From an uncultured Flavobacteriaceae bacterium (lineage in GTDB: Bacteria > Bacteroidota > Bacteroidia > Flavobacteriales > Flavobacteriaceae), in assembly GCA_947504035.1 (NCBI GenBank), contig CANNGA010000003.1:62001-126000 (forward strand): 64,000 bases of DNA, written 5' to 3'. Shown here piece by piece: positions 3,945-56,202 of this stretch. The notes beneath the pieces are model-generated. The model saw nothing but the letters and a program-made list of their open reading frames with translations, searched no databases and had not been told where the DNA came from. The translations under genes and the position numbers were made by a program. Position 1 is the first letter of the stretch. Each line of letters starts with the position of its first letter.

Positions 3945-4078
3945 TTTTAAGACGCACCTATTTTGTTAAAATAGAAAGATTTCCTTTTTATTTTGTTAGG
4001 TTTCTATTTTCACACGACTACTCTCTCTTATCGTAAGTTATAACTAAACGACAATAGGTAAGAACACCTTATGAAATG

Positions 4079-4124: not shown

Positions 4125-4155
4125 AATACCTTGATTAATACTAAAACTAAACGCA

Positions 4156-5004: not shown

Positions 5005-5020
5005 TGTAAAATATAATATT

Positions 5021-5398: not shown

Positions 5399-5670
5399 AA
5401 TAGCAGCCTTTGTTACTTTTAAAGTTTTATAATGAAGATGTAGTTCTTCAAGTAAAAAATAAACGACATATCACTTAAATTACATTTATGTCTGTTATAG
5501 AGTATAATTTATAAAAAAAACGACAACTAAGCCTTCGTTTATATGTATTAGTCAAAATCTTTCAAAATTTAACACTTTTATTTCTAAAACCACAGGTATA
5601 TCTGGCTAAGAATTTTTAAATTTAACTGCATAAATAACTATAGCTATTACAGCATAAGCCCCAAGAACGT

Positions 5671-6570
5671 TTGAGCGCATTAAAAACAATATTATACTTT
5701 TCTATCTTTAAATATCCCATTACTAAAGAGGAAATTTATAAATTTTCTAAGGGCACTTCCACAGCCCATATTGAAAAAGAATTAGAACTTTTAATTGCTA
5801 AAAAAATCATTTATAAGCATGGTGAATTTTACACTACAACGAATGATGACAAATTAATTTCAAGACGGCTAAAGGGTAATGAAATGGCTCAAAAAATGAT
5901 GCCAAAAGCTAAAAAAGTAGCGCGGCTAATTGCTAAGTTTCCCTATGTTGAAAGTGTTTGTGTTTCAGGCTCTCTTTCCAAAGGCTATTATGATGCTGCC
6001 AATGGAGATATCGATTTTTTTGTAATTACCAAGAAAGACCGCCTATGGGTGTCTAGAACTCTTCTAATTTTGTACAAAAAAATATTCTTACTCAACTCTA
6101 AAAAATACTTTTGCGTTAACTATTTTATAAGTACAAATAATCTAGAAATATCAGAAAAAAACAGATTTACGGCTACAGAAATGGTGACTTTAATACCGCT
6201 TTATGGCAAAGCAACTTATCAAGAATTTATGCAACATAACCCATGGCCTAAACAGTATTTCCCCAACATTTTGCCATTTGATACGTCGCTAATAGAAGAT
6301 ACCAATAAGGCTTTTTTATCTAAAACCATAGAGGCTTTTTTTAATACCAAAATAGGCCCCACTTTCGATACGTTTTTTAGATACCTTACCTTAAAAAAAT
6401 GGCAGAAAAAATTTGATCATTTACAGTCAGATGATTTTAATATTGCTATGAAAAGTACTAAAAATGTATCAAAACACCATCCACAAAATTTTCAGCGAAG
6501 GGTTATTGATAAACTCAACGACGACTATAATAAAATCAACCTCAAATACAATTTAGAAATTGTTCACTAA
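5671..6570 (+). CDS. Winged-helix plus nucleotidyltransferase-domain protein
   Basis: The 299-aa protein opens with a winged-helix-like segment (about 1-60: FKYPITKEEIYKFSKG, then a basic hairpin). A minimal nucleotidyltransferase core follows: G100-S101 in VSGSLSKGYYD and the metal pair D113/D115 in GDIDFFVI. The C-terminal part is basic and helical. The substrate is unknown. The start is a TTG at 5671, chosen because the frame covers the whole N-terminal domain and no ATG lies close by. The gene heads the island and is 3 bases from a B12-radical SAM gene, so it is probably the first gene of that operon. It may be enzymatic (NMP transfer to a small molecule or lipid carrier) or regulatory. 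Confidence 0.7.
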   Translation: MSALKTILYFSIFKYPITKEEIYKFSKGTSTAHIEKELELLIAKKIIYKHGEFYTTTNDDKLISRRLKGNEMAQKMMPKAKKVARLIAKFPYVESVCVSGSLSKGYYDAANGDIDFFVITKKDRLWVSRTLLILYKKIFLLNSKKYFCVNYFISTNNLEISEKNRFTATEMVTLIPLYGKATYQEFMQHNPWPKQYFPNILPFDTSLIEDTNKAFLSKTIEAFFNTKIGPTFDTFFRYLTLKKWQKKFDHLQSDDFNIAMKSTKNVSKHHPQNFQRRVIDKLNDDYNKINLKYNLEIVH

Positions 6571-6573
6571 ACT

Positions 6574-8037
6574 ATGACAGATATTGTATTTTCTCATTCG
6601 TATTATTATAAATTCGATCCTAAACAATGGAAAAACCAAACGCCTTACCCCCCTTTGGGCACACTTTATGCTGCGTCCTACCTTAGGGCTAATGCGTATG
6701 AGGTTTCTGTTTTCGATGCCAATCTTATAGAAGATCCTAAACTTATAAAACCCTATTTAGAAGCTAAAAAACCCTCTCTATTTGTCATATATGACGATGG
6801 TTTTAACTACCTCACAAAAATGTGTTTAACCACAATGCGTGAAGCTGCTTTTAAAATGATCGCTATTGCGAAACAATTAAATTGCAAAACTATTGTTTGC
6901 AGTTCTGATGCTACAGACCATTATGAAAAATACTTAAATGCGGGTGCCGATTTTGTAATTAAAGGTGAAGGCGAACTCACCCTAAAGGCCCTTGCAGATG
7001 CTTTAAAACAGGGGCATGATACATCGCAAATAAGCGGTATCATGTACCGAAAACACAATGAAACTGTAAAAAATCCACCTCGAAAAGTCCTTCGTGATTT
7101 AGACGAATTACCGCTTCCTGCTTGGGATTTAATAGATATAGAACCTTACAGAGCCATTTGGGAAGCTGCTGGTCATAAATTCACCCTTAATATTGCAACA
7201 ACCAGAGGTTGTCCCTTTAAATGTAATTGGTGTGCCAAGCCTATTTATGGCAACCGTTACAACTCGCACTCTCCCGAATATATTGCAAAGCACATTCAAT
7301 ACTTATCCGAGACGTATAACGTGAACCGCTTTTGGATGTGTGATGATATTTTTGGATTAAAACCGGGTTGGGTACAACAATTTAACACCGCTTTAAAAGA
7401 AAAGCACCTATCCATTGTATACTACATACAAAGTCGGGTAGATTTATTATTAAAAGAAGATACTATAGAGGCCCTTGCAGAAAGTGGTCTTGAAGAGGTC
7501 TGGGTGGGTGCAGAAAGTGGTTCTCAAGCCATTTTAGACGCTATGGATAAGGAAACTAAAGTAGAACAAATTTACGAAGCCACAAGACTTCTTAAACTTA
7601 AACAGATAAAAGTGGCCTTTTTTATTCAGTTTGGTTACCTTGGAGAAACCAAAGCAGATATTAATAAGACCATTAAAATGATAAAAGAATTAGTTCCAGA
7701 CAATATAGGCATATCTGTATCCTACCCTTTGCCAGGCACTAAATTTTATGATAAGGTTAAAGACGATCTTAAACTTAAAGCAAATTGGACAGACTCAGAC
7801 GATTTAGCCATGATGTTTAAAGGAACGTTCAACTCTAAATTCTATAAAAAATTGCACCGCTATGCACATAAGGAATATAGAAAAAGTCAAGGACTTTCAA
7901 TGCTTAAACTCCTTTTAAAGAATCCTTTAAAAATCTCTAAGCATCATCTTAAAAGAATAGCGTACTTAGCGTATTATTTTCCAAGTGCGTTTATAGATGC
8001 CAGAATTTTACAAAAAATGGCGCATGTTAATGACTGA
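6574..8037 (+). CDS. B12-binding-domain radical SAM protein (first of three)
   Basis: Residues 1-160 form a cobalamin-binding Rossmann domain (PYPPLGTLYAASYLRAN near the start, GADFVIKGEGELTLKAL later). The radical SAM core carries the CxxxCxxC cluster motif C213-x3-C217-x2-C220 in RGCPFKCNWC, then VWVGAESGSQAILDAM, typical of the BchE/Elp3-like SAM barrel. At 487 aa it has the usual family length. Members do methylation of unactivated carbon or ring chemistry; the substrate here is unknown. The gene overlaps the next methyltransferase start by a few bases. It resembles the protein encoded at 8818 in layout and wording (PYPPLG, GAESGSQ), suggesting an old duplication. Confidence 0.9.
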   Translation: MTDIVFSHSYYYKFDPKQWKNQTPYPPLGTLYAASYLRANAYEVSVFDANLIEDPKLIKPYLEAKKPSLFVIYDDGFNYLTKMCLTTMREAAFKMIAIAKQLNCKTIVCSSDATDHYEKYLNAGADFVIKGEGELTLKALADALKQGHDTSQISGIMYRKHNETVKNPPRKVLRDLDELPLPAWDLIDIEPYRAIWEAAGHKFTLNIATTRGCPFKCNWCAKPIYGNRYNSHSPEYIAKHIQYLSETYNVNRFWMCDDIFGLKPGWVQQFNTALKEKHLSIVYYIQSRVDLLLKEDTIEALAESGLEEVWVGAESGSQAILDAMDKETKVEQIYEATRLLKLKQIKVAFFIQFGYLGETKADINKTIKMIKELVPDNIGISVSYPLPGTKFYDKVKDDLKLKANWTDSDDLAMMFKGTFNSKFYKKLHRYAHKEYRKSQGLSMLKLLLKNPLKISKHHLKRIAYLAYYFPSAFIDARILQKMAHVND

Positions 8038-8821
8038 AAGTTTTGATACCGCTGCTTCGGCTTATGATACTATTTTTACAAATAGTCCTATTGGGAAATT
8101 ACAAAGGGCATTTGTTTACGACTTTTTATCCAAACACATTTTAAAAGACGAACCTCTTCGTATTTTAGAAATAAACTGTGGCACGGGTCATGATGCGTTG
8201 TGGTTGTCTGATAAGGGTCATAACGTTATTGCAACTGATATTTCACCTAAAATGGTTGCTGTTGCAAGCGCTAAAAACACCTCGAATTCCCCTCGAGTCT
8301 CATTTTCAAGACTAGATATCAATGCTCTAGACCAGACTTCTTTTGATGAATCTTTCGATCTTATATTTTCAAATTTTGGAGGCTTAAACTGTCTCTCACC
8401 CGCACAGTTAAAACTTTTTTTAGCCGCTGCGGCTCGAAAACTAAAGCCGCAGGGCAAAATCGCCGCTGTTATTATGCCTAAAGCCTGTGTTCTTGAAAGC
8501 CTTTATTTTATAGCAAAAGGGCATCTAAAACAAGCTTTTAGACGCCGTACAAAGACTTCTGTTATTGCAAATGTTGACGGTGTTGGCGTTAAAACATGGT
8601 ACTACGCACCCAAAGATATCATTCAATTTGGTAAAGCAGATTTTAAATACAACCGTAAAAGTCCTATCGGGTTTTGTATCCCGCCCTCTTATCTGGATCC
8701 CTTTTTTAAAAATAAATTGTCACTTTTAAATGCCTTAAAACGATTAGAGCGCTTATGCTATCGCCTTCCTTTTCTAGCCCAGTACAGTGACCATTACATT
8801 ATCTCTATTTCTAAACTATGA
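8030..8821 (+). CDS. Class I SAM-dependent methyltransferase
   Basis: Transfers a methyl group from SAM to an unknown acceptor. The N-terminus MTESFDTAASAYDTIF and motif I ILEINCGTGHDALWL (about residues 45-59), followed by VIATDISPKMV, are standard for the UbiE-like class. The reading frame is open from an ATG at 7997, but a start at 8030 (8 bases of overlap with the previous gene) gives the normal N-terminus, so I prefer 8030; 8024 is also possible. The stop overlaps the next start as ATGA. Its place between two B12-radical SAM genes suggests the three act on one substrate (inference). Confidence 0.85.
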   Translation: MTESFDTAASAYDTIFTNSPIGKLQRAFVYDFLSKHILKDEPLRILEINCGTGHDALWLSDKGHNVIATDISPKMVAVASAKNTSNSPRVSFSRLDINALDQTSFDESFDLIFSNFGGLNCLSPAQLKLFLAAAARKLKPQGKIAAVIMPKACVLESLYFIAKGHLKQAFRRRTKTSVIANVDGVGVKTWYYAPKDIIQFGKADFKYNRKSPIGFCIPPSYLDPFFKNKLSLLNALKRLERLCYRLPFLAQYSDHYIISISKL

Positions 8822-10203
8822 GTATCGTTCTAACACATGCCTATTACTTAAATGATGATCCTAAAGAACAACGGATCATGAAACCCTATCCCCCTTTAGG
8901 CTTGCTCTATGTTTCTGCATACTTAAAACAAAAAAACATTAAAAATGATGTGTTTGATACGACATTTAGTTCTTTAAAAAAACAACTGCATTTTATAGCT
9001 AGCAAAACCCCTAAGATTGTTGCTATTTATGCCAACTTAATGACAAAAGTAGATGTTATTAAACTTATTCGCATCTTAAAAACAGAGCCGCATTATGGCT
9101 TTCCTAAAATTGCCTTAGGGGGTCCTGATGTGACTTATAACTGTGAAAATTACCTACAAGCAGGCGCTGAGTATCTGGTACTTGGAGAAGGTGAGGAAAC
9201 ATTTTTCGAATTATACAATGCGATTATCGCAAAAAAGGACATTACCGCTGTTACTGGTATTGCATACTTAAAAGATAATGTCGTTCATAAAACGGCGCCC
9301 AGAGTGAAAATGAAAGCGTTAAATGCTTTGCCATTACCTAATAGAGGCGCTATAGATATGCAACATTATTTAGACACTTGGAAAAAAAATCACGGCCAAA
9401 GTTCTATGACCGTAAGTACGCAACGTGGCTGTCCTTATACTTGTAAATGGTGCAGTACAGCTGTTTATGGGCAAAGTTATCGCCGAAGACCTGCCCAACA
9501 AGTCGCTGAAGAATTGGCACTTTTAAAAAAAACATACCAACCAGATAGCATATGGTTTGTAGATGATGTGTTTACTGTAAGTCATAAATGGTTAACCGAT
9601 TTTCATAAAGAAGTGTTACAACAAGATGCAGTGATTCCTTTTGAATGCATTACTAGAGCAGAACGCTTAAACGACCATGTACTCCAGCTTTTAAAAGAAG
9701 CAGGCTGCTATCGTATTTGGATTGGCGCAGAAAGTGGTTCACAAAAAATAATAGATGCCATGGACCGCCGTGTTGATGTTGATGTTGTAAAAGAAGCCAT
9801 TCAAAAAACAAATGCGCTTGACATGGAAACAGGAACTTTTATCATGGTAGGGTATCCAGGAGAAGATCTCGAAGATATTGATACCACTATACAGTATTTA
9901 AAAGATGCTAACCCTACGCATTTCACCATAACAGTGGCTTACCCTATAAAAGGGACTTCACTATATGATGACATCGAAGATAAAATTACTGTCCAGCCCA
10001 ATTGGGAAACCTCTACAGATAGAGATATTGATTTTAAACGCACCTATCCTCGTAAATTTTATGATTATGCTGTAAAACGCGTGGTAAACGAAGTAAATTA
10101 TCATAAGGAAATTACAAAACAACAAGATAGAAATCTAAAGAAAGCATTTAAACATAAAATAAAGTCTATTTTAGCTCATGGCTTAATGTCTGTTCATAAG
10201 TAA
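8818..10203 (+). CDS. B12-binding-domain radical SAM protein (second of three)
   Basis: A 461-aa protein with the same two-domain layout as its neighbour at 6574. The cobalamin-binding half (about 1-150) has PYPPLGLLYVSAYLKQK, PKIALGGPDVTYN and GAEYLVLGEGEETFFELY. The radical SAM core has C205-x3-C209-x2-C212 in RGCPYTCKWC and IWIGAESGSQKIIDAM further on. The start ATG overlaps the previous stop (ATGA), so translation is probably coupled. The next gene begins 1 base after its stop. The reaction is unknown; C-methylation, or rearrangement of a lipid or sugar precursor, is plausible from the family. Confidence 0.9.
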   Translation: MSIVLTHAYYLNDDPKEQRIMKPYPPLGLLYVSAYLKQKNIKNDVFDTTFSSLKKQLHFIASKTPKIVAIYANLMTKVDVIKLIRILKTEPHYGFPKIALGGPDVTYNCENYLQAGAEYLVLGEGEETFFELYNAIIAKKDITAVTGIAYLKDNVVHKTAPRVKMKALNALPLPNRGAIDMQHYLDTWKKNHGQSSMTVSTQRGCPYTCKWCSTAVYGQSYRRRPAQQVAEELALLKKTYQPDSIWFVDDVFTVSHKWLTDFHKEVLQQDAVIPFECITRAERLNDHVLQLLKEAGCYRIWIGAESGSQKIIDAMDRRVDVDVVKEAIQKTNALDMETGTFIMVGYPGEDLEDIDTTIQYLKDANPTHFTITVAYPIKGTSLYDDIEDKITVQPNWETSTDRDIDFKRTYPRKFYDYAVKRVVNEVNYHKEITKQQDRNLKKAFKHKIKSILAHGLMSVHK

Positions 10204-10204
10204 C

Positions 10205-11743
10205 ATGGAGACCAACTCAAACGCTTACACCTTATCCCCCTTTTTCAGGTATAGCCTAACCGTTCTTTTTTTTAGTCTAAGTTTTATAGGTATTTGCCAT
10301 CATGAATTATGGCTCGATGAGGCGCACCATTATCTCTTAGGTAGAGACAGTCATTCTTTTAGAAACCTTATCGCAAACACCCGTTACGATGGCCACCCTA
10401 TTCTTTGGAATCTATTAATGCATTATATAACAAGGTTTACTGTTAACCCTTTCTACATGCAATTGTTACATATTAGCATAAGCACTATAAGTATAAGCAT
10501 TTTTTTTAAAAAAGCACCCTTTTCATGGGTTTTTAAAGTATTGTTTATATTCGGTTATTTTATGTTTTTTGAATATAATATTTTAAGTAGAAATTATAGT
10601 ATTGGTGTCTTATTTACTTTCTTAGCTTGTAGTTTTTATTCAAAAAGAATATTCAAGTTCATAACAATATCCACTTTTTTAGGTGTAGCTTGTAATAGTC
10701 ACGCTGTATTTTTAATATTAGCCTCAACAATTATGCTCATTCTAACATGGGAAAGGTTATTTTCCTTGAAGAAAATTAAGTATGCACAAACTTATTATGG
10801 CATCTTTATTTTTAGTGCTTTAGCTGGCTTAAGCATCTTACAAATTATACCTCCAGGTGACAATACGTTTTTCGATAACGATGCTGGTTCTACGCTGCTT
10901 CAAAAAATCCCTAAAAGTATAGCGCCCTTTTTTAAAGCCTTATGCCTTATCCCTAATATTACACTGCATTCGTTTTGGAATGAAAACCTTATCGTAAGTA
11001 CCAGTAAATCCATCGCAGGACTTTTATCTTTATTAGCACTTACTTCGCCTTACTTTTTGTTTAAAAATAATAAAATGGTACAGGCACTTATTTACATAGG
11101 CATCTGTGCCGCTGGTTTATTTTTTTATATAACAAACCTCAATGCTGCTCGTTATTACGGCATTCTATACTTGCTTTTTTGTATTGGTTTATGGTTTCAC
11201 AACACATCTCCTAATATACAACGAGACACTATAAGGGATAAAAAAATAAGACACTTTTTTGTTTATACTGTACTCATCATACATTTTTCGTCTGGCATAT
11301 ATGCCTATACGATGGATATTATTTATCCATTTACCACATCTAAACAAGCCGCAGATTATATTAAGAAGCATGTTCCTAACGAAACCATTATAGCATCTTT
11401 AGCCTGTAATGGTAGCGCATTTAGTGCTTATATTGAAGAGCCAATATTCTTTACAAAAACAAATAACTATGGAAGTTTTTGTATTTTTAACAAATCAGTC
11501 ATAAATTTTAAAACGCCACGAAAAGATATTATAAAATCCCTTGAAACACTACGTCTTGAATCTGAGGAAAAAACAATTATTTTTATAACATACGCACCTT
11601 TTTTTGATACCGATGAAAATAAAGAATGTATTTTACCTAACAGCGCCCTTAAAATTAAACTACTTCAACAATTTAACGGCAGTATCTTAAAAAAAGGCAA
11701 CCATTATCTTTATGAAATTTCTGAATATAAAACACCCATTTAA
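10205..11743 (+). CDS. GT-C type membrane glycosyltransferase (polyprenyl-phosphate sugar dependent)
   Basis: A 512-aa protein with about ten or more predicted membrane helices. The first lumenal loop carries the GT-C signature HELWLDEAHHYLLG, with acidic pair D38-E39, followed by RYDGHPILWNLLMHY. Such ArnT/PMT-like enzymes move a sugar from a polyprenyl-phosphate carrier to a lipid, protein or glycan outside the cytoplasm. A soluble C-terminal part (about 400-512) follows the helices. The gene is 1 base from the radical SAM gene and its end overlaps the following lipoprotein start by 32 bases, so it belongs to the same operon. Confidence 0.8.
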   Translation: METNSNAYTLSPFFRYSLTVLFFSLSFIGICHHELWLDEAHHYLLGRDSHSFRNLIANTRYDGHPILWNLLMHYITRFTVNPFYMQLLHISISTISISIFFKKAPFSWVFKVLFIFGYFMFFEYNILSRNYSIGVLFTFLACSFYSKRIFKFITISTFLGVACNSHAVFLILASTIMLILTWERLFSLKKIKYAQTYYGIFIFSALAGLSILQIIPPGDNTFFDNDAGSTLLQKIPKSIAPFFKALCLIPNITLHSFWNENLIVSTSKSIAGLLSLLALTSPYFLFKNNKMVQALIYIGICAAGLFFYITNLNAARYYGILYLLFCIGLWFHNTSPNIQRDTIRDKKIRHFFVYTVLIIHFSSGIYAYTMDIIYPFTTSKQAADYIKKHVPNETIIASLACNGSAFSAYIEEPIFFTKTNNYGSFCIFNKSVINFKTPRKDIIKSLETLRLESEEKTIIFITYAPFFDTDENKECILPNSALKIKLLQQFNGSILKKGNHYLYEISEYKTPI

Positions 11744-12881
11744 AACCCTCCATTTGCTGCTTATTCCTTTAGTATGCATCTTATTACATTCTTGTTCTAA
11801 ACTAAAATTTTGGGAAACAGAACCTAATAACCTCATCAATTTAAAATGGAATAAAGCCTATAATAACGACAACTTAGAACTCCATAAGGCAGGATTAAAA
11901 TGGGCGCTATCGTTTTTAGGATCTAAAATAGCCTTAGATACAAGTTATAGCGGTATTACTTACTCTAAAAACACCATTCTATTAGATGTTGACCATGTAG
12001 GGTTTTCCCAAAAAGCAATAACGCATTTAAAAGCCTTAAATAAAACCATTAAAACCTCTGACGAATACCAAAAAAAAGGCCATATTGATATTGGCAGGTA
12101 TTTGGCGCTTACTATCGGCAGTCCACTTCATTACTACAAAATTGTTGATGTTCCTATAACTTTAAAAGATTTAGAATCTAATTACAATTTTGATACATTA
12201 ACGGCATATATTAATAACAGTAGCATTTCTAAAATAGATCGAAATATAAAAACATCTAAAACGGGTACGAGTTATAAAAAAGCCTTTATTTCTTCTGAAA
12301 TAGATACACTTACGCAAAAAATTTTAGAATATGAAAGTGTAGAATTAATGGAAAACGGGTTATCTCGATTTGCGCTTTATGATAGTATTGGAAATTTAAA
12401 AAGTGCAGGAGATTTAAATGTCACAAGAGCAGGTAAACCTGGTAAATGTATGTGGTGCCATGAATCTGGGATACAACCTCTTTTTAGAGTTCAAAAAGAA
12501 ATACCACATTATATGTCTCCTAAAAATTTTCTTGATTCATTAATTACCTATAATAGTCGTCTACAGGACTATCAAGCTAAAATCTGGCAGGATTCTCTAA
12601 TAATAAATAAAAGACAGCACACCAATATGGAGCTTACCTACATTACCTTTATGGAACCTTCTATAGAACAACTATCCAATGAATGGGGGTTACCTCCTGA
12701 AAAAGTAAGACAAAAAGTAAAACACTTAACCCCACATACTCACGAGGAGTTTAAATTTTTAGGGGATTCTCTATATCATAGAAAAAATATTGATATTCTG
12801 GCGCCTTATAAGGTTATTGCAGTTCCTGAAAGTATTAGAGAATCTTCTACTCTTAAAAGTCCTGTCAACTACCTAAAATGA
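11712..12881 (+). CDS. Lipoprotein with a c-type heme motif, family unknown
   Basis: 389 aa. The lipoprotein signal ends ILLHSC with the lipidated Cys at residue 28. I recognise no domain, but C246-M-W-C249-H250 in PGKCMWCHESGIQPLF is a CxxCH covalent heme-binding motif, preceded by the strand LSRFALYDSIGNLKSAGDLN. The C-terminus (about 300-389) is helical and basic. The start at 11712 lies inside the end of the GT-C gene; the signal peptide supports this start. A heme lipoprotein in a cluster of glycan and radical SAM genes is unusual. It may be an exported oxidoreductase or electron carrier. Function unproven. Confidence 0.7.
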   Translation: MKFLNIKHPFKTLHLLLIPLVCILLHSCSKLKFWETEPNNLINLKWNKAYNNDNLELHKAGLKWALSFLGSKIALDTSYSGITYSKNTILLDVDHVGFSQKAITHLKALNKTIKTSDEYQKKGHIDIGRYLALTIGSPLHYYKIVDVPITLKDLESNYNFDTLTAYINNSSISKIDRNIKTSKTGTSYKKAFISSEIDTLTQKILEYESVELMENGLSRFALYDSIGNLKSAGDLNVTRAGKPGKCMWCHESGIQPLFRVQKEIPHYMSPKNFLDSLITYNSRLQDYQAKIWQDSLIINKRQHTNMELTYITFMEPSIEQLSNEWGLPPEKVRQKVKHLTPHTHEEFKFLGDSLYHRKNIDILAPYKVIAVPESIRESSTLKSPVNYLK

Positions 12882-12887
12882 GACGTC

Positions 12888-13709
12888 TTATTTTATCCAC
12901 CTTTTATACAAGGCTAACTTTTCTTCTGTTGTAAAAAAATGATTGGTATATTGTGATTCCAATTGATCTTCTAAATATGATTTCGAAAAACGCATATGTG
13001 CTTTAAAAGCAGCATATAATTTAGCACTTTTCTTAGCTTCTGTAACATTCATATTTTTAAGAAAAAATTGATCTACATTACAAAAGTCCCCCACTAAATC
13101 AGCCTTTAACGCATCATTAAGGCTGCTTTTAACTAATAAAATATCGGCCTTATCTGTAGAAATTGTATCATAACCTTTGGTCTTATCGAAAGGATGTGCA
13201 TAAATATCTACTCCAATACCTGTTCTAAAATGATTATCAAACCAATCTTTACAATACGAATGGTCTAACTTATCAAAAAATGACATTTCTAAGTTTTGAA
13301 GGCTCCCTTTATAACGATGGGCTGGCATCCCCATATGGATCTCAAAGGCTTCAAAAAAAGCAGAAAGATTACGTTCTATAGGATTTCGAAATAACGAAAT
13401 GACTTTATACTTGTGGTTCGTTTCTAAAAAATAAGCATTCAATATAAAAACAGGGCTTCTACTTCCTGGATAAACGCCATTTTTTTGACATAGAGCCTTC
13501 GCATTTAAAGCTTCTATTTCACTAAGGCTATGTATGTGAAAACAAGGCATATCGATTCTATGCCTTAAGGAGTGGTAAACACTAGAAGACCCTACTTTAG
13601 CCATTGTAAAAATTAATACAGGGGCTTCTTTAGTCTTTTTTAATTGTTGGGTTTGTTTCCACAGCTGCCAACGGTCCTTTATATGGTATTTTATAAACGG
13701 TTTTATCAA
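12888..13709 (-). CDS. Sulfotransferase-fold protein, capsular-polysaccharide-synthesis (NKWYS-like) family
   Basis: The 273-aa protein has a PAPS-loop-like segment, LIFTMAKVGSSSVYHSL (K38-V-G-S-S-S at 38-43), and a later SLFRNPIERNLSAFFEAF resembling the 3'-phosphate-binding part of sulfotransferases. This combination matches the family named putative capsular polysaccharide synthesis protein, which I place in the sulfotransferase clan. The donor and acceptor are unknown; sulfation of a glycan with PAPS is the best guess. It faces the plus-strand lipoprotein gene tail to tail and is probably co-transcribed with the GT87 gene upstream, whose stop lies 2 bases before its start. Confidence 0.65.
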   Translation of the reverse strand: MIKPFIKYHIKDRWQLWKQTQQLKKTKEAPVLIFTMAKVGSSSVYHSLRHRIDMPCFHIHSLSEIEALNAKALCQKNGVYPGSRSPVFILNAYFLETNHKYKVISLFRNPIERNLSAFFEAFEIHMGMPAHRYKGSLQNLEMSFFDKLDHSYCKDWFDNHFRTGIGVDIYAHPFDKTKGYDTISTDKADILLVKSSLNDALKADLVGDFCNVDQFFLKNMNVTEAKKSAKLYAAFKAHMRFSKSYLEDQLESQYTNHFFTTEEKLALYKRWIK

Positions 13710-13710
13710 A

Positions 13711-15324: not shown

Positions 15325-15349
15325 AAATAACTTTATTTAGAACAAATAA

Positions 15350-15359
15350 TGACATGTCA
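15350..15359. promoter_or_regulatory. Palindrome between divergent genes
   Basis: TGACATGTCA is a perfect 10-bp palindrome in the 112-base gap between the divergent GT87 and GT2 genes. It may be an operator shared by both, but a 10-bp site alone is weak evidence. A TAnnTTTG match on the minus strand (CAAAAATA on plus, 15322-15329) lies too close to the GT87 start to be sure of. Confidence 0.3.
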
Positions 15360-15436
15360 ATTCTATTCTTTTTAATATATTAACGGCGTTTACTGTTGCC
15401 CTAAAACAAGGCTCTTAAAAAGCAATACACTAATAG

Positions 15437-16183: not shown

Positions 16184-16185
16184 GA

Positions 16186-17376: not shown

Positions 17377-17403
17377 TTTCACAAACCCATATACACATTA
17401 GAT

Positions 17404-19269
17404 ATGACTAAAATTCTAGGGATTGCTGCTTTTTATCATGATGCCGCTGCAGCTGTTGTAATAGACGGAAAAATTAGTGCTGCCGCTCAAGAAGAGCGAT
17501 TTACAAGAATTAAACATACCCCCGACTTTCCTGAGCATGCAATAACATATTGTTTGGAAGAAACTGGTTTATCTATAGACGAATTAGATGCTGTTATTTT
17601 TTATGACAAACCATTACTCACTTTTGAACGTCTTTTACAAACTTATTATGCGTTTGCGCCAAAAGGTATCCGCTCTTTTTTAAAGGCCATTCCCATTTGG
17701 CTCGAGCAAAAGTTATTTCTAAAAAAACAAATCCGCGACGGGCTTCATAAAGTCATGCCTTACGATAAAAAGAAGCTTAAACTCCTTTTCACAGACCATC
17801 ACTTATCACATGCCGCAAGCACTTTTTTTGCATCGCCTTACAATCATGCAGCTATATTAACTATAGATGGCGTAGGAGAATGGGCTACAGCAACCATTAG
17901 TGAAGGAAAAGGAAATAACATTGTTATAAAAAAGGAAATGGCATTCCCGCATTCTGTAGGGCTGTTGTACAGCGCTTTTACTTACTATCTTGGATTTACA
18001 GTAAACTCAGGGGAATACAAACTTATGGGGTTAGCCCCTTATGGCCACCCTAAATCGAAACAAACCCTTAACTATATTAACCAAATTAAAAATCATCTTA
18101 TTTCTATAAAAGAAGATGGTTCCATATGGCTAGATCAATCCTATTTCAATTATGCTACTGGCCTTACCATGACCAACGACAATGCATGGCTACAGCTATT
18201 TAATTTAAAACGGCGAGAGCCTGAATCAGACTTACGCCAAGAGCATTGTAATCTCGCTTATGCCATTCAAAATGTTACAGAAGAAATTGTCTTAAAAATG
18301 GCTGCTTTTGCGAAAACTGTAACAGGAGCTAATCATCTATGTCTCGCTGGTGGGGTTGCTCTAAATTGTGTAGCAAACGGTAAATTATTACAACAACAAA
18401 CATTTAAAGACCTCTATATACAACCCGCTTCTGGAGATGCTGGAGGTGCTCTTGGAGCTGCCCTTGCGGCTTACTATATGTATTATAATAAGCCGCGGAA
18501 AATAGAGGGGGAAAAAGACGAGATGCAGGGTACATATTTAGGCCCTTATTTTTCTAATAAAGAAATTATAAAAATTAATAAACGCTACAAAGCCGTCGCC
18601 TCTCACATTCCTACATTTAATGATTTATCAAAAAAAATAGCTAAAGAAGTTGCTAAAGGCGCCATTGTTGGTTGGTTTCAAGGACGAATGGAATTTGGTC
18701 CAAGAGCTTTAGGGAATCGTAGCATTATTGGAGACCCTTCTAATGCAGAGATGCAAAAAAAGCTAAATCTTAAAATAAAGAAAAGAGAAAGTTTCAGACC
18801 TTTTGCTCCTGCTGTTTTAGCCTCAGATGCTTCTACTTTTTTTAATTTAGAAACAGCATCACCTTATATGACCTTGGTTGCAGACATCAAAAAAAAGATA
18901 CAAAACGATTTGCCTTCTAATTATCATGAATTACCTTTACTGGATAAATTATATTACAAGAGGAGCCATTTACAAGCAATTACACATTTAGACTATTCTG
19001 CAAGGATACAAACAGTACACCAAGATACCAATCCAAAATTTTGGCAATTACTACAAGATGTGAAACAAGAAACTGGAGTTGGAATTTTAATTAATACGAG
19101 TTTTAATGTAAGAGGAGAACCTATTGTTTGTACGCCCGAAGATGCATATTCTTGCTTTATGAATACCGAAATGGACATTCTTGTTATGGAAAATTTCGTG
19201 TATTATAAAACAGATCAATACGAGTGGGATAATAAAGAACGATGGGCAACCGTATTTAAAAAAGATTAA
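17404..19269 (+). CDS. O-carbamoyltransferase (NodU/CmcH/SxtI family)
   Basis: Transfers the carbamoyl group of carbamoyl phosphate, through an ATP-dependent carbamoyl-adenylate, to a hydroxyl of the acceptor. Both domains are present in 621 aa. The Kae1-like N-terminal half has ILGIAAFYHDAAAAVV and the metal/ATP histidines in H132-H133-L-S-H136, then AILTIDGVGEWATA and YKLMGLAPYGHP. The YrdC-like C-terminal half has GRMEFGPRALGNRSIIGDP (427-445) and INTSFNVRGEPIVCTPEDA. The acceptor is unknown. The next two small genes are its usual companions (DUF5989 and SxtJ types), 1 base apart each, so this is a tight three-gene unit. Confidence 0.92.
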   Translation: MTKILGIAAFYHDAAAAVVIDGKISAAAQEERFTRIKHTPDFPEHAITYCLEETGLSIDELDAVIFYDKPLLTFERLLQTYYAFAPKGIRSFLKAIPIWLEQKLFLKKQIRDGLHKVMPYDKKKLKLLFTDHHLSHAASTFFASPYNHAAILTIDGVGEWATATISEGKGNNIVIKKEMAFPHSVGLLYSAFTYYLGFTVNSGEYKLMGLAPYGHPKSKQTLNYINQIKNHLISIKEDGSIWLDQSYFNYATGLTMTNDNAWLQLFNLKRREPESDLRQEHCNLAYAIQNVTEEIVLKMAAFAKTVTGANHLCLAGGVALNCVANGKLLQQQTFKDLYIQPASGDAGGALGAALAAYYMYYNKPRKIEGEKDEMQGTYLGPYFSNKEIIKINKRYKAVASHIPTFNDLSKKIAKEVAKGAIVGWFQGRMEFGPRALGNRSIIGDPSNAEMQKKLNLKIKKRESFRPFAPAVLASDASTFFNLETASPYMTLVADIKKKIQNDLPSNYHELPLLDKLYYKRSHLQAITHLDYSARIQTVHQDTNPKFWQLLQDVKQETGVGILINTSFNVRGEPIVCTPEDAYSCFMNTEMDILVMENFVYYKTDQYEWDNKERWATVFKKD

Positions 19270-19270
19270 C

Positions 19271-19420
19271 ATGGACATACTTAAAGACCTGTGGCTATTT
19301 ATGAAGGAACGAAAAAAATTCTGGTTATTTCCTATCATAATTATATTGTTAGTATTAGGCGTTCTTATTGTATTTGGAGGTAGTAGCGCACTTGCGCCTT
19401 TTGTATATTCACTTTTCTAA
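19271..19420 (+). CDS. DUF5989 (SxtK-like) small membrane protein
   Basis: A 49-aa protein: MDILKDLWLFMKERKKFW, one transmembrane helix (PIIIILLVLGVLIVF), then GGSSALAPFVYSLF. This length and the FMKERKKFWL...GSSALAPFVY pattern are characteristic of DUF5989, which typically sits beside carbamoyltransferase genes; SxtK of saxitoxin clusters is of this type. The frame is open further upstream inside the carbamoyltransferase gene, but the ATG at 19271, 1 base after that stop, gives the family's normal start. Role unknown; perhaps it anchors the carbamoyltransferase at the membrane. Confidence 0.85.
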   Translation: MDILKDLWLFMKERKKFWLFPIIIILLVLGVLIVFGGSSALAPFVYSLF

Positions 19421-19421
19421 A

Positions 19422-19796
19422 ATGACTACTAAGCATACACATACTAGCCCTAATAAAACCTTATTAGCAATTGTTATTGGCTTTATAAGCATTGCCCTAA
19501 TCTTTAAAACATCTTGGACTTTGTGGATCGCTTTAAGCTTAGGTGCTTTAGGTTTGATTTCAAATACTATCGCACTTAAAATTCATGTTTTATGGACACG
19601 CTTAGGTCTCGTATTAGGTCATATCATCCCACCTATTTTACTTTCACTTATCTTTTTTATAGTCCTTTTCCCTTTAGCGCTATTATCAAGATTATTTGGC
19701 GATAAAGACCCTTTACTTTTAAAAAAAACCGATAAAAGTCTTTTTAAAACTGTCGATAAAACATTTGAAAAAGAAACGTTTGAAAAAACCTGGTAG
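19422..19796 (+). CDS. SxtJ-family membrane protein
   Basis: 124 aa with two to three membrane segments: LLAIVIGFISIALIF, LWIALSLGALGLIS and LGHIIPPILLSLIFFIVLF. It ends with a lysine-rich tail containing LSRLFGDKDPLLLKK, a pattern I associate with SxtJ-family proteins. It starts 1 base after the DUF5989 stop; a longer in-frame start exists inside that gene but would add a non-family N-terminus. Conserved next to O-carbamoyltransferases across distant bacteria; biochemical role unknown. Confidence 0.8.
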   Translation: MTTKHTHTSPNKTLLAIVIGFISIALIFKTSWTLWIALSLGALGLISNTIALKIHVLWTRLGLVLGHIIPPILLSLIFFIVLFPLALLSRLFGDKDPLLLKKTDKSLFKTVDKTFEKETFEKTW

Positions 19797-19801
19797 GCCG
19801 C

Positions 19802-20890
19802 TTATTTAGTTCTGTTTTCTAAATACTCACATAGCACTTTAGCCACCAATACATTTCCTTCCGCTGTCCAGTGTTGCTCTTTAATATTATACATAGAAAT
19901 CCCTTTGTTTTGAGCATGACGCAAACTGGGCATTAAATCTATCATTTCAATAGCATGAGTCTTAGCAAAATTAAGGAGTTCTCTATTAGGTAAATCGCGT
20001 TGTAAACTTATACTTTTATCGGCCTCTTGAAGTTTTAACCATAACTCATCGTTAACTTGAACTAGTGATGGAGCTAAAGCAAAAACGACAGGTATATCCA
20101 AAGTTTTTCCATAAGCATTTATTTCCAGCACCAACCGTTTCATAGTTTCATACATAAGTGCTGTTTCTTTTGAGAAGGGTGTTCTACAGATATAGTGTTC
20201 TGGCGGTAAGTCTCCTAATGAAAAATCTTTAGTAGTTTTCTGTTTTATGTTGGCAATGCCTTGTTTAAGCAGTCTAAAAATGTGCGATTTATAATAATAA
20301 GGCAGGGCTTCCTTCTTCTTATAGTTTTGTGAAGGTGGGCTAATTTGCAAACCACCTTCTGTATTAAAAGCGACAGAAGGTCTAGGGTACAACCACTGCG
20401 TTTTATATGTATTATCTGTAAAATCATTTCTAAGATAAATAAGTACTAGAGCAATATCGGGTTTTAATTGGGGAGCCCATTTTTTTAGTACCAAAAGCTC
20501 TTGAACTTGTCCATAGCCGTTTACTCCAAAGTTATACACAGAAGTAGTTTCAAGTTGTTCTTCCATTAGTCTTGTAAAAACGGTTGCGCTATTTACAGAA
20601 ATATTACTCACAAACGAATCTCCCAATACCATAATTTTAACATTTTCATTTTTAGAGTCGAAAGGCACATCTCTGTAGCCCTCAGTATTGGTTTGAATGG
20701 TATGTCTTATACCTCCTTCATAAATAATATTCCCCCGTTTATTTGGAATAAATGTCCACCCTAAATCCTTGTCTACCTGAAACATTAAGTCATGCTCATT
20801 AATTTGAGGCATAAAAAAACGTACTCCTAATTCACATAATACTAAAGTACATACCGTTGAAATTAATAACAGTAAAAAATTTGTTCTCAT
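19802..20890 (-). CDS. SGNH/GDSL hydrolase family protein
   Basis: A 362-aa membrane-anchored or exported protein. It has an N-terminal hydrophobic helix (about 4-22), then VDKDLGWTFIPNKRG, NTEGYRDVPF and the GDS block I, G90-D91-S92 in IMVLGDSFVSN. Further on come FGVNGYGQVQELLVL and DIALVLIYLRND (oxyanion blocks), and a C-terminal block V with the catalytic His in EQHWTAEGN. Such proteins act as glycan O-acetyl esterases or acetyltransferase partners in polysaccharide loci. The start at 20890 (MRTNFLLLL) gives the helix at the N-terminus; 36 further codons are open upstream. It is tail to tail with the SxtJ gene and divergent from the sulfotransferase gene. Confidence 0.8.
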   Translation of the reverse strand: MRTNFLLLLISTVCTLVLCELGVRFFMPQINEHDLMFQVDKDLGWTFIPNKRGNIIYEGGIRHTIQTNTEGYRDVPFDSKNENVKIMVLGDSFVSNISVNSATVFTRLMEEQLETTSVYNFGVNGYGQVQELLVLKKWAPQLKPDIALVLIYLRNDFTDNTYKTQWLYPRPSVAFNTEGGLQISPPSQNYKKKEALPYYYKSHIFRLLKQGIANIKQKTTKDFSLGDLPPEHYICRTPFSKETALMYETMKRLVLEINAYGKTLDIPVVFALAPSLVQVNDELWLKLQEADKSISLQRDLPNRELLNFAKTHAIEMIDLMPSLRHAQNKGISMYNIKEQHWTAEGNVLVAKVLCEYLENRTK

Positions 20891-20981
20891 AATGGATACA
20901 ATAATAAAATTTAATGTACTATTAAAAATCCAATATGCCATGAAGAACTTATTCTTTATATTTACACGTATTAGTAAAACA

Positions 20982-21737
20982 ATGTCAAAGAAAAACATAA
21001 TTATCGTTGGTTATCCTAAAAGTGGCACTACTTGGTTAAGTCGTTTGGTTGCAGAATTAGCATCTTGTCCTTTAATTGGAGATTGGGGGTTTGATCATGT
21101 AAAAGCTTTGTATAAAGAAGGAGAAGAAAGAATATCTACATATAACTGTTATAAAACTCACTATACGTATAACGCTATTTTTTCAGCTAAAGCAGAAACT
21201 GTTTTTAAAATTATTCATGTCATTAGAGACCCTAGAGATGTTGTGATATCTGGAAGTTACTATTTTAAATTTTCAAGTTTATTTCAAAAAATTTTACAAA
21301 AATTTGGATTGATCACTAATCATTCTTCTATTTTCAATGTGTCATATAAAAAAAGAAAAAGAAGAATGATCCATGCCATATTACATGGAGATGCTTCTAT
21401 TAACTCTTGGCTTTCACTATCTTGGTTAGACCACTTAGCATCTTTTAAAGATAAAGATGTACTTACAATTAAATATGAAGATATGCTCATTCGTCCAAAA
21501 GAAGAATGCATAAAAATAATGTCCTTTTTAAATTTAAAAACAGATGACACCCATATACTTAACAGCATAAAAAATCAATCTATTAATACTCGAAAAAAAG
21601 CTTCTTTGGATTCTAAAAACGTTCAATTACAAAAATTAATAAGAGAAGGAAAGCAAGGGTACTGGAAAAATAATTTCACGAAACAAGAAAAAGTAAAGTT
21701 CGAATTGTATTTAAAAAACACCTCTTTTTATAACTAA
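20982..21737 (+). CDS. Sulfotransferase domain protein
   Basis: Transfers sulfate from PAPS to an unknown hydroxyl. The 251-aa protein has a textbook 5'-phosphosulfate loop, P12-K-S-G-T-T-W18 in IIIVGYPKSGTTWLSRLV, and a 3'-phosphate-binding segment, IHVIRDPRDVVISGSYYF. Later VLTIKYEDMLIRPKEEC and a C-terminal GKQGYWKNNFTKQEK complete the fold. The frame is open from 20892, but the ATG at 20982 directly precedes the first strand and is preferred. It is the second sulfotransferase-fold protein of the island; PAPS could come from cysC at the window's left end. Confidence 0.88.
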   Translation: MSKKNIIIVGYPKSGTTWLSRLVAELASCPLIGDWGFDHVKALYKEGEERISTYNCYKTHYTYNAIFSAKAETVFKIIHVIRDPRDVVISGSYYFKFSSLFQKILQKFGLITNHSSIFNVSYKKRKRRMIHAILHGDASINSWLSLSWLDHLASFKDKDVLTIKYEDMLIRPKEECIKIMSFLNLKTDDTHILNSIKNQSINTRKKASLDSKNVQLQKLIREGKQGYWKNNFTKQEKVKFELYLKNTSFYN

Positions 21738-21746
21738 TTGTTAAAG

Positions 21747-22439
21747 ATGTACGAGAAACTAAAAAAAATACTAAAGTGGAACTATTATCAGAATAAAAAA
21801 TTTTATAAGAGTCTCATTAATAAAGATGATCTTTGCTTTGATATTGGCGCTAACGTAGGGACAAAAAGCAAACTATTTCTATCTTTAAACGCTAGAGTTA
21901 TCGCTTTTGAACCTCAATCGACTTGTATTGAACACTTAAAAAAAATTAAACATCCTCAATTTTCTTATTTTAAATGGGGTGTAGGTGCTATAAATGGGGT
22001 ACAGAAATTACAGTTAGCAAATCATATAGAAGTAGCAACTTTTTCCCAGAACTTTATAGATTTCTTTAAAAATGAAAATCTACAATGGAATCAAAATGAA
22101 GATGTTACTATTAAAAAAATAGATACTCTCATTGATGAATTTGGTATACCCGATTATTGTAAGATAGATGTTGAAGGCTATGAGTATAATATTTTATCTC
22201 ATCTAAATCATCAAATTCCAATTATTGAATTTGAGTTTACAGAAGCTTTTTTTTCTGAAACAATAAAATGCATAAAACTCTTAGATACAAGCAATAGAGT
22301 TTACAACTATAATTTAAACGAATGTCCTAAATTCGAATTAGAATCATGGGTGTCTGCGAAAGAAATAATCACTATTTTTAAAAAATTACCAAAAACTAGA
22401 CTTCATGGTAATATTTTTGTAAAACAATGTCCAATTTGA
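21747..22439 (+). CDS. FkbM family methyltransferase
   Basis: 230 aa. Motif I, LCFDIGANVGTKSKLFLSL, is followed by VIAFEPQSTCIEHLKKI; later VTIKKIDTLIDEFGIPDYCKIDVEGYEY is the FkbM signature. It transfers a methyl from SAM, usually to a sugar or polyketide oxygen. The ATG at 21747 is preferred over a TTG at 21738. It overlaps the next radical SAM gene by 13 bases, so the two are translated from one message. Confidence 0.85.
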   Translation: MYEKLKKILKWNYYQNKKFYKSLINKDDLCFDIGANVGTKSKLFLSLNARVIAFEPQSTCIEHLKKIKHPQFSYFKWGVGAINGVQKLQLANHIEVATFSQNFIDFFKNENLQWNQNEDVTIKKIDTLIDEFGIPDYCKIDVEGYEYNILSHLNHQIPIIEFEFTEAFFSETIKCIKLLDTSNRVYNYNLNECPKFELESWVSAKEIITIFKKLPKTRLHGNIFVKQCPI

Positions 22440-23956
22440 AAAATAAAGTTCTCATATTCAACCCTAGAAGTGCCAACCAAAAGCACCGTATTCCAAATTC
22501 CATATTACAAGTAGGCGCTGCTATTTACGGTATTTTCGACTTTGCGTTTGTTGATGGCAATCTAGAAGAAAATCCTTGGTTAAAAATACAATCTTACTTT
22601 AATACAGGAGAGTATAAATATTTTTGCAGTACAGTAATGCCAGGTCCTCAATTAAGACAAGCTATTCCTTTTACTCGCAAAATCAAAGAAGAATTTCCTA
22701 ATACCATAACCATATGGGGGGGCTATTTTGCATCCAACCAATACAAAGTATCTATAGAGGCACCCTATGTAGATTATATCGTGAATGGCCCTGGAGATGT
22801 TACATTTCCTGAATTATTAAAAACATTAGAATCAGGGCACATAGAAGAATTACCTCAACTAAAAAACCTCATCTATCTAGATACTAATGGAAACATCATT
22901 AGAACTAAAAAAGAAGCGCTTCTAGATCAAGATACATTACCTCAACTCCCTTATACGCATCTTAATACCTTCTATAATTTAGAGAATTACTTAAGTCGTA
23001 CCTTTTTAGGAGAGAAAACATTTTCCTATCATTCTAGTTTAGGCTGTCCATTTACATGTTCGTTTTGTGCAGTTGTTCCCATTTATCAAGGGCGTTGGAA
23101 AGCTAAATCTGCACAAACCGTTTATAACGATGTTAAGTACTTTAAAGACAATTTTAATATTGACGCCATAGAGTTTCACGACAATAATTTTTTTACCTCT
23201 AAAAAACGCGTTGTAGAGTTTTCAAAACTCATTAAAGATGACGGAATTACATGGTGGGGCGAAGGCCGCATAGATACCATTAATAAATATGAAGATGAGG
23301 ACTTAAAGCTTATGAAAGCGGCAGGCTGTAAAATGATTTTTTTAGGAGCTGAAACAGGTAATGACGATATCCTGAAGCAAATGAATAAAGGTGGTACCCA
23401 AACCGGTCAAGGCATTAAAGACTTTGCTGCACGTTTATACCCTATTGGTATTATTCCTGAATTTTCGTTTGTATTAGGCATGCCTGCCGATACGCCAGAG
23501 CAAGTTATGGCGCAAATTGAGTGGGACATCAATTTTATCAAAGAAATAAAAGAAATTAACCCAGACGCAGAAATTATAATCTATTTATACAGTCCTGTAG
23601 CTACTGAAGGGTCTGAGTTATATGAGCAAATTCAAAAAGCAGGGTTTAGCTTCCCTAAAAAGTTAGACGATTGGTTAGACCCAAGTTGGGAAAATTTCGA
23701 TTTACGTAAAAATCCGTTAACGCCTTGGCTTACACCAAAAATGGTAGATCGCATTATGAATTTTGAAACCGTATTGAATGGGTACTACCCTACTGCTTCC
23801 GACTTTAGAATTAAAGGCGTGAAAAAAACACTTTTACGCTCCATTTCAAAAATACGTTATAAAACAGGGGTTTACAAATACCCTTACGAAATTAAAGCTT
23901 TGCACAAAATTTGGAAATACAGGCAACCTGAAATACAAGGCTTTTATTCAGAATAA
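22427..23956 (+). CDS. B12-binding-domain radical SAM protein (third of three)
   Basis: A 509-aa protein. The N-terminal half (about 1-150) looks like a cobalamin-binding fold (VLIFNPRSANQKHRIPNSIL, TITIWGGYFASNQY, YVDYIVNGPGDVTFPELL). The radical SAM cluster is C207-x3-C211-x2-C214 in LGCPFTCSFC, followed by FHDNNFFTSKKRVVEFSKL and FLGAETGNDDILKQMNKG. It is only distantly like the pair at 6574 and 8818 and probably does a different step. It overlaps FkbM by 13 bases and the next methyltransferase by 1 base. Substrate unknown. Confidence 0.88.
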   Translation: MSNLKNKVLIFNPRSANQKHRIPNSILQVGAAIYGIFDFAFVDGNLEENPWLKIQSYFNTGEYKYFCSTVMPGPQLRQAIPFTRKIKEEFPNTITIWGGYFASNQYKVSIEAPYVDYIVNGPGDVTFPELLKTLESGHIEELPQLKNLIYLDTNGNIIRTKKEALLDQDTLPQLPYTHLNTFYNLENYLSRTFLGEKTFSYHSSLGCPFTCSFCAVVPIYQGRWKAKSAQTVYNDVKYFKDNFNIDAIEFHDNNFFTSKKRVVEFSKLIKDDGITWWGEGRIDTINKYEDEDLKLMKAAGCKMIFLGAETGNDDILKQMNKGGTQTGQGIKDFAARLYPIGIIPEFSFVLGMPADTPEQVMAQIEWDINFIKEIKEINPDAEIIIYLYSPVATEGSELYEQIQKAGFSFPKKLDDWLDPSWENFDLRKNPLTPWLTPKMVDRIMNFETVLNGYYPTASDFRIKGVKKTLLRSISKIRYKTGVYKYPYEIKALHKIWKYRQPEIQGFYSE

Positions 23957-24639
23957 TGGGAGATTTTCGCAATTTTTTAAAGAAGATAACACATCCATTT
24001 TTAAAAAAGGGATTAACGTATTACTATAGAAAGCCAAGACCTTATACTTATAAAGGCATCACTGTTACCGTACATCCAGATGTGTTTCCACCGCAATTGA
24101 CTTTAAGCACAAAAATTCTTTTAGATTTTATGACGTCTCTACCTCTTAAAACTAAAACGTTTTTAGAACTTGGATGTGGTTCTGGTATAGTCGCACTTTA
24201 TGCCAGACAGAAGGGCGCCATTGTTACCGCCAGTGATATTAATGATACCGCTTTAGAGTATTTAAAAACAGCTTCTAAAAAAAACAATCTTGATATTCGC
24301 TGTACCCATTCTAATTTATTTGAAGCCTTTTCTAAAAAAGCCTTCAATTATATTTTCATTAACCCGCCTTACTACCCTAAAACTCCTGAAAACACCAAAC
24401 AAAAGGCATGGTTTTGTGGTCCTAATTTCGAGTATTTTGAAGCGCTTTTTCAGCAATTACCATCCTATCTAGGTAAAGAGAACAAGACCTATATGATACT
24501 TTCTGAAGATTGTGCCATTCAAAACATTAAAACTATTGCCTTAAAGCACCACGTCCATCTAGAACTCATCCATAAAGAAAAAAAAGTAGGGGAAGAGAAT
24601 TATATTTATAGCATACAATCCAATTCCCCTAATACTTAA
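23956..24639 (+). CDS. Class I methyltransferase with NPPY motif (MTS/HemK-like)
   Basis: 227 aa. Motif I, FLELGCGSGIVALYARQKG, then VTASDINDTALEYLK, and an N136-P-P-Y139 motif in YIFINPPYYPKTPEN. NPPY marks methyltransferases acting on a planar nitrogen (adenine, glutamine amide). Here the partner is a B12-radical SAM gene with which its start overlaps (TAATG), so it more likely serves the island than ribosomes or DNA (inference). It is the last plus-strand gene of the island; a convergent metalloprotease gene follows. Confidence 0.8.
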   Translation: MGDFRNFLKKITHPFLKKGLTYYYRKPRPYTYKGITVTVHPDVFPPQLTLSTKILLDFMTSLPLKTKTFLELGCGSGIVALYARQKGAIVTASDINDTALEYLKTASKKNNLDIRCTHSNLFEAFSKKAFNYIFINPPYYPKTPENTKQKAWFCGPNFEYFEALFQQLPSYLGKENKTYMILSEDCAIQNIKTIALKHHVHLELIHKEKKVGEENYIYSIQSNSPNT

Positions 24640-24655
24640 CTCCAATTATTGGGTA

Positions 24656-56200: not shown

Positions 56201-56202
56201 TT

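Follow-up and report, generated by a model that had tools for sequence, protein, structure and literature searches.

In Flavobacterium psychrophilum, loci of the Wzx/Wzy type for O-polysaccharide (O-PS) combine a flippase, glycosyltransferases and genes that vary among strains, according to the accessible part of one report (PMC6519341). The LFG locus, described in the accessible part of a second report (PMC12871550), has fixed ends, a variable middle and a flippase. Here we describe an island that shares these traits, its flippase being a probable one, in a 64,000-nucleotide stretch (the window) of contig CANNGA010000003.1 from an uncultured Flavobacteriaceae bacterium. Unlike the Wzx/Wzy loci, the window's island lacks an initiating transferase, a polymerase and nucleotide-sugar genes, and its fixed core consists of B12-binding radical S-adenosylmethionine (SAM) enzymes and a nucleotidyltransferase (NTase) resembling aminoglycoside nucleotidyltransferases (ANT). 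It differs from the LFG locus in having no link to metG, other fixed genes and a patchy presence.

The core enzymes also have described counterparts. BchE, HpnJ, PhpK and the ladderane radical SAM protein (NCBIfam) share with the island's proteins the B12-binding and radical SAM domains and the CxxxCxxC motif; the island's proteins score far under the curated cut-offs of these models (for example, the first of them, rs1, reaches 155 bits against 481 for BchE). The moenomycin cluster encodes a B12-radical SAM methylase, a carbamoyltransferase and glycosyltransferases that act on a lipid, together with a MoeO5-type prenyl ether synthase; the island has no Pfam match to such a synthase, and has a flippase-like protein and swappable cargo instead. 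In fosfomycin synthesis, nucleotidyl transfer comes ahead of the B12-radical SAM step, Fom3 acting on 2-hydroxyethylphosphonate (2-HEP) bound to cytidine monophosphate (CMP), as stated in the accessible part of that report (PMC8158854). This order serves as a model for the first two steps of the pathway proposed below; by contrast, the island's NTase is of the polymerase-beta/ANT kind, and no phosphonate genes were seen in the island.

We favour the reading that the island is a flippase-dependent locus for a variable surface glycoconjugate, the conserved unit of which would be made by B12-radical chemistry, by a hitherto undescribed core (probability about 0.55). The sequences themselves show which genes are present and that they co-occur, an insertion at a conserved junction, fixed ends and a swapped middle. 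Judged from its genes, the product looks like a variable, unusually modified surface glycolipid; its identity, the substrate, the reactions and the export are all predictions. No description of such a locus was found in titles and abstracts of the open-licence PubMed Central (PMC) literature, a search that does not by itself establish absence from print.

An inserted segment between ACOT and carB

The gap between the ACOT gene (3408-3944) and carB (27170-30070) spans 23.2 kb in the window. In one genome of the same genus (G321), the homologues of window positions 3938 and 27169 lie about 45 bp apart, and in another (G132) those of 3946 and 27171 are about 690 bp apart; neither genome has a match to NTase, rs1 or rs3. 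The island is thus an insertion. A preliminary description had placed it at 5671-24639, and these coordinates are correct for its genes, but the true insert is wider by this comparison (about 3946-27169): an M43 peptidase also falls within it, as do a DUF5777 beta-barrel protein and a small protein resembling cytochromes. The features of the insert are as follows.

3946..27169, unstranded: whole inserted segment, between ACOT and carB
5671..6570, +: A, winged-helix and ANT-like nucleotidyltransferase (NTase), core; Pfam NTase domain
6574..8037, +: B, rs1, B12-binding radical SAM protein, core; Pfam Radical_SAM
7997..8821, +: C, class I methyltransferase (MT), core; PF13649; best NCBIfam match CpaM, below cut-off
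8818..10203, +: D, rs2, B12-binding radical SAM protein; 34% identical to its paralogue rs1
10205..11743, +: E, probable GT-C glycosyltransferase; no Pfam match; WLDE(A/S)HH motif and 6-7 hydrophobic segments in 3/3 homologues
11712..12881, +: F, lipoprotein carrying a single c-type heme motif; no Pfam match; N-terminal Cys invariant
12888..13709, -: G, NKWYS family (capsule synthesis; sulfotransferase-like); PF10364; VGS motif in 5/5
13711..15324, -: H, GT87 glycosyltransferase; PF09594
15437..16183, +: I, GT2, resembling polyprenyl-phosphate-sugar synthases (predicted substrate); PF00535; no hydrophobic segment
16186..17376, +: J, probable flippase of the Wzx type; 11 hydrophobic segments; no Pfam match
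17404..19269, +: K, O-carbamoyltransferase; PF02543 and PF16861
19271..19420, +: L, membrane protein of 49 amino acids, read from the sequence; putatively DUF5989/SxtK-like
19422..19796, +: M, SxtJ family membrane protein; PF19588 (the query began earlier, at 19368)
19802..20998, -: N, SGNH/GDSL hydrolase; PF00657
20892..21737, +: O, sulfotransferase; PF00685; PKSGTTW in 4/4; the listed start overlaps N, and the true start is probably later
21738..22439, +: P, FkbM methyltransferase; PF05050
22427..23956, +: Q, rs3, B12-binding radical SAM protein, right-end core; Pfam Radical_SAM
23956..24639, +: R, class I methyltransferase (MTS) of the right-end core; PF05175
4156..5398, +: DUF5777 beta-barrel and small cytochrome-c-like protein, left part of the insert; PF19089; PF13442 below cut-off
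24656..26824, -: M43 peptidase with a Por secretion tail, inside the insert

Pfam matches over the cut-off bear out most of the inventory made from the letters of the window: two class I methyltransferases, FkbM, GT87, GT2, Sulfotransfer_1, NKWYS, GDSL, the N- and C-terminal carbamoyltransferase domains, SxtJ and the NTase domain. The heme-motif lipoprotein stands as well, CxWCH being present in 11/11 homologues (the window's included). For the proposed GT-C enzyme and flippase, neither of which has a Pfam match, the assignment comes from a motif and from hydrophobic segments.

Loci of this kind in other genera lie at the RmuC-ACOT...carB place or beside the genes c4 and c18, of which c4 is DNA polymerase I (NCBIfam) and c18 has no name. 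Among 81 loci, 25 are at the RmuC/carB site and 37 at the polA/c18 site, the remaining 19 being unassigned. Several other genera, too, have the DUF5777/cytochrome-like genes next to the island. No tRNA was detected by ARAGORN in the 64-kb window, and tRNA-linked integration was dropped. A plasmid carrier of rs1 was also considered; 22 plasmid records matched, all at less than 60% identity (25-28% among the ten matches listed), and no carrier was seen.

A fixed core of B12-radical SAM enzymes and a nucleotidyltransferase

By domain and motif, rs1, rs2 and rs3 are members of the B12-dependent radical SAM superfamily. All three have a Radical_SAM Pfam match, and CxxxCxxC is present in 39/39 aligned rows (rs1 12/12, rs2 12/12, rs3 15/15). 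The preliminary description counted three B12-radical SAM proteins, which is borne out; the N-terminal B12-binding domain (PF02310, cut-off 32.1 bits) is matched in all three, exceeding the cut-off only in rs2 (41.4 bits), with rs1 (30.8) and rs3 (25.8) below it. The proteins are well conserved: rs1 is 63-77% identical to 11 homologues, and rs3 71-88% identical to 14, with an invariant C-terminal GFYSE. In the NTase, the active-site motif GS...DxD is retained in 10/10 rows. The fold is tentatively placed nearest to that of the aminoglycoside nucleotidyltransferases, the fold rows covering mainly residues 1-64 and 72-196 and barely the C-terminal third; a sequence search of the PDB with the NTase profile returned nothing below E 0.05. 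To judge by their sizes, the genome's remaining two B12-binding proteins (905 and 724 amino acids as open frames) would be MetH and methylmalonyl-CoA mutase.

We examined the distribution of the core in 397 Flavobacteriaceae genomes, drawn evenly from a larger group. Of these, 27 carry rs1; the NTase occurs in those 27 and no others, and its coordinates place it next to rs1. All 20 genomes with rs3 lie within the rs1-bearing 27 (hypergeometric 4e-28, with relatedness ignored); in 19 of the 20, rs3 shares a contig with rs1, 6.5-51 kb away, and in the twentieth (G177) it lies on a separate contig, at the edge, flanked by an FkbM piece and MTS. The cluster of MT (gene C) is represented in 27/27 neighbourhoods (window included), and rs2 is present in 22/27 rs1 genomes, 20 of which have it 2.2-2.6 kb from rs1; the distance is 3.2 kb in G148, and G353 has the two genes 26 kb apart. 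Following the proteins encoded at 6574 and 8818 through neighbouring genomes, as had been proposed, therefore shows a core that stays together; the homologues of rs1, NTase and rs3 co-occur rather than being scattered.

An rs1 profile scan gave at least 576 relatives (at least 593 stretches), the best 80 loci of which were named, with 10-kb flanks. These span Kordia, Winogradskyella, Lacinutrix, Aquimarina, Dokdonia, Flavobacterium, Tenacibaculum, Polaribacter and other or unclassified Flavobacteriia. rs1 and MT are present in all 80, NTase in 79 (directly before rs1 in each; unrecognised in L127) and rs2 in 73, so that the left core NTase-rs1-MT, usually with rs2, is fixed across the set; rs1, NTase and rs2 were also counted by identity. 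rs3 was recognised in 23 loci and the lipoprotein with the heme motif in 28; right-end genes are undercounted here because the flanks reach only 10 kb. Taken together, the core comprises NTase, rs1, MT and usually also rs2 and rs3 with MTS. In G353 (L036, L086), about 24 kb of other genes separate MT from rs2 within the core. In several loci, a radical SAM/SPASM protein (cluster c11; L076:2535-3611) directly precedes rs3, and c11 occurs in 9/27 neighbourhoods. The L153 record is titled Bifidobacterium breve; its locus neighbours match flavobacterial clusters, and the label of this metagenome bin is probably wrong.

Within Bacteroidota as a whole, the cassette turns up again with a patchy distribution. 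In a sample of 395 genomes of the phylum, 27 carry rs1, among them the window's own genome and two more Flavobacteriaceae. Twenty of the 27, all from other families, were fetched; NTase was recognised in 18, rs3 in 11 and MT in 19, this last count being weak evidence in so generic a family. In L177, rs1 was masked by an antisense open-reading-frame call. An amidohydrolase (c110) and a methyltransferase (c244) adjoin rs3 in six of the 20 other-family loci.

The middle of the island is exchanged between close relatives

The middle of the island, made up of glycosyltransferases, a transporter and sulfo-, carbamoyl- and methyltransferases, differs even between loci whose rs1, MT and rs2 share 96-98% identity. 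Two pairs chosen from the rs1 tree illustrate this. In Winogradskyella L100 and L105, rs1, MT and rs2 are 96-98% identical and NTase 79%, and the cargo is different; Gaetbulibacter L106 and Flaviramulus L107 both occupy the RmuC site, with core proteins 85-94% identical, and do not share their cargo. We assigned cargo types as rough labels (heme, PMT, PNP, GT4) by the presence of profiles within 10 kb, which typed 76/81 loci. On the rs1 tree, cargo type changes 33 times (76 loci), against a mean of 38.5 in 200 shuffles, 4 of which were as low; chromosomal site changes 11 times (62 loci), against a mean of 20.0, with 0 shuffles as low. Genes E-J are all present in 4/80 named loci (two Dokdonia, one Ulvibacter and one unclassified), and G337, the same contig as the unclassified locus, has E to R in the window's order, with only the FkbM gene missing. 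The preliminary description's single, specific 19-kb pathway is not borne out by these comparisons, in which the carbamoyl, sulfate and glycosyltransferase parts are interchangeable cargo. Fixed ends with an exchanged middle are the pattern of surface-antigen loci, and from this pattern we infer that the product is exposed at the surface.

The transporter also varies. Counting strictly, with near-full-length proteins only (which excludes short ATPases caught by the ABC profile), a flippase-like transporter of four families (Wzx-type J, c17, c40 or ABC c54) lies downstream of rs1 in 49/80 named loci, and one of five flippase-like clusters is present in 21/27 family neighbourhoods (mostly with 20-kb flanks); the transporters seen in loci other than the window's include c17, c40 and the ABC transporters c54/c247. 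Six neighbourhoods lack such a transporter. One of them, G112, is a short contig; the remaining five (G168, G148, G346, G328 and G193) show 25-28% matches to the window's flippase. We keep the flippase-dependent reading because 21/27 of these wider neighbourhoods carry a transporter. The earlier suggestion of a heavily decorated, membrane-linked product that the cell makes and exports agrees with the genes present, among them flippase-like transporters, GT87- and GT-C-type glycosyltransferases and enzymes using carbamoyl groups or 3'-phosphoadenosine 5'-phosphosulfate (PAPS); the chemistry and the export would follow from it by prediction.

Nucleoside-type enzymes occur in alternative versions of the locus, namely an amidohydrolase and a DeoD-like phosphorylase (L057:4374-5612, L050:646-1389). 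No locus among the 80 named ones has both (the counts are 11 and 2), and the amidohydrolase c110 has HxH in 2/2. The processing of adenosylhopane offers a comparison for the phosphorylase (c38) and the amidohydrolase, which may serve a hopanoid-like route or simply dispose of 5'-deoxyadenosine.

Alternative explanations

The strongest alternative, which we still consider unlikely, is that radical SAM tailoring enzymes have by chance joined an otherwise ordinary Wzx/Wzy locus for O-antigen or capsule. The flippase-like protein, the glycosyltransferases and the serotype-like exchange of the middle would be expected of such a locus, and the O-PS loci of F. psychrophilum likewise vary among strains in the accessible part of the report (PMC6519341). 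However, the island's proteins have no Pfam match (E 0.01) to an initiating sugar-phosphate transferase, a Wzy polymerase (PF04932), a chain-length regulator or nucleotide-sugar synthesis; the genome encodes five Bac_transf proteins, 0 of them in the island, and has its own locus of this kind at 49-62 kb of the window (Bac_transf, Wzy_C). Short versions of the island (5/27 neighbourhoods), moreover, have NTase-rs1-MT with a flippase-like protein, one GT2 and a phosphorylase, a point countered in part by the middles of G148 and G193, which do contain epimerase, kinase/cytidylyltransferase and heptosyltransferase-type genes.

It is distinctly improbable that the island makes the outer part of a Bacteroidota protein O-glycan, as an LFG-like locus. 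Fixed ends, a flippase and a variable middle are found there too, the O-glycans bear methyl groups, and the LFG locus is reported not to be conserved phylum-wide, hence another layout is possible (all from the accessible part of PMC12871550). Yet LFG loci have metG and wzx at the start and two conserved glycosyltransferases at the end, as far as that part of the report describes them (PMC12871550), whereas the island ends in rs3-MTS. In the window's genome, metG is on another contig (G000:C9), followed by a gene for a protein of 513 amino acids with one hydrophobic segment and no Pfam match, and the island occurs in only 27/397 genomes of the family.

Equally improbable is a secreted phosphoglycolipid natural product of the moenomycin type, made by radical SAM C-methylation, carbamoylation and several glycosyltransferases. 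The enzyme classes are alike, and MoeK5 is named among the B12-radical SAM methylases in the accessible part of a further report (PMC8992657). However, no prenyl-ether synthase is among the island's Pfam matches, cargo is exchanged between close relatives, and the core is present in several families of the phylum. Finally, a chromosomal hotspot collecting unrelated genes would account for the two recurrent neighbourhoods and for the M43 peptidase, matched in 0/26 other neighbourhoods at E 1e-5, and may apply to single cargo genes, but as an account of the whole it is highly improbable, being contradicted for the core, whose genes co-occur in the same genomes and keep their order at either site as well as in other families.

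A proposed pathway to a surface glycolipid

In the flippase-dependent reading, the core (an ANT-like NTase, one to three B12-radical SAM enzymes and one or two class I methyltransferases) would build a fixed lipid-linked unit in the cytoplasm, which the interchangeable cargo would decorate and export. The NTase would first attach a nucleoside monophosphate (NMP) to a small precursor or a lipid head group, at a hydroxyl, a step for which the CMP-bound substrate of Fom3 is the precedent. rs1, then rs2 and rs3, could C-methylate or rearrange the nucleotidylated precursor. Methyltransferases, sulfotransferases and the carbamoyltransferase would then decorate it in the cytoplasm from SAM, PAPS and carbamoyl phosphate, a chemistry predicted from the enzyme families in an order that is conjectural. 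A Wzx-type or ABC flippase would carry the unit across the membrane, where GT-C and GT87 may add periplasmic sugars from polyprenyl-phosphate sugars made by the GT2 enzyme.

More tentatively, and with clear doubt, the island could represent an undescribed class of Bacteroidota surface glycolipids. Its anchor or first residue would be made without a sugar-phosphate transferase; the NTase would tag the precursor with NMP, and up to three B12-radical SAM enzymes would form C-C bonds (a C-methyl branch or a carbocycle). In some versions, phosphorylase- or deaminase-type enzymes would process a purine-bearing intermediate, and the outer part would vary like a serotype. If true, B12 supply would be linked to surface structure in Bacteroidota, and three conserved, uncharacterised families of B12-radical SAM enzymes would gain a common biological context. 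The natural strain pairs with near-identical rs1, MT and rs2 and different cargo could, by mass spectrometry, separate the core from the cargo parts of the product.

Genes surrounding the island

Just upstream of the window (L087:8597-19795) lie a cobalamin riboswitch, a BtuB-like receptor, CobUTSC and a BtuFCD-like transporter. By NCBIfam, CobT, CobS and CobC are over the cut-off and CobU just under it, with the BtuB-like receptor and BtuC-like permease below; Pfam recognises the binding-protein and ATPase partners of the permease. The riboswitch (Rfam) is present in 7/7 other loci with BtuFCD-like genes and in both empty-site genomes of the same genus, and BtuB- and BtuFCD-like genes stand beside RmuC in the two empty-site genomes as well. 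We therefore rejected the idea that the B12 genes are part of the island, which settled beside a B12 operon and did not bring it. CobU/T/S/C are absent from that interval in both empty-site genomes and also in island-bearing G024, G148 and G346; because these three island-bearing loci lack them too, CobUTSC are not simply tied to the island.

About 5 kb upstream of the island with its sulfotransferases, an adenosine 5'-phosphosulfate (APS) kinase gene, the sole match in the genome, lies at 1-381 of the window on the minus strand and would supply PAPS. APS kinase was not found in 26 neighbourhoods (E 1e-30) or in the empty-site stretches (E 1e-20). A separate polysaccharide locus at 49153-60093, likewise on the minus strand, encodes Bac_transf, Wzy_C and several glycosyltransferases.

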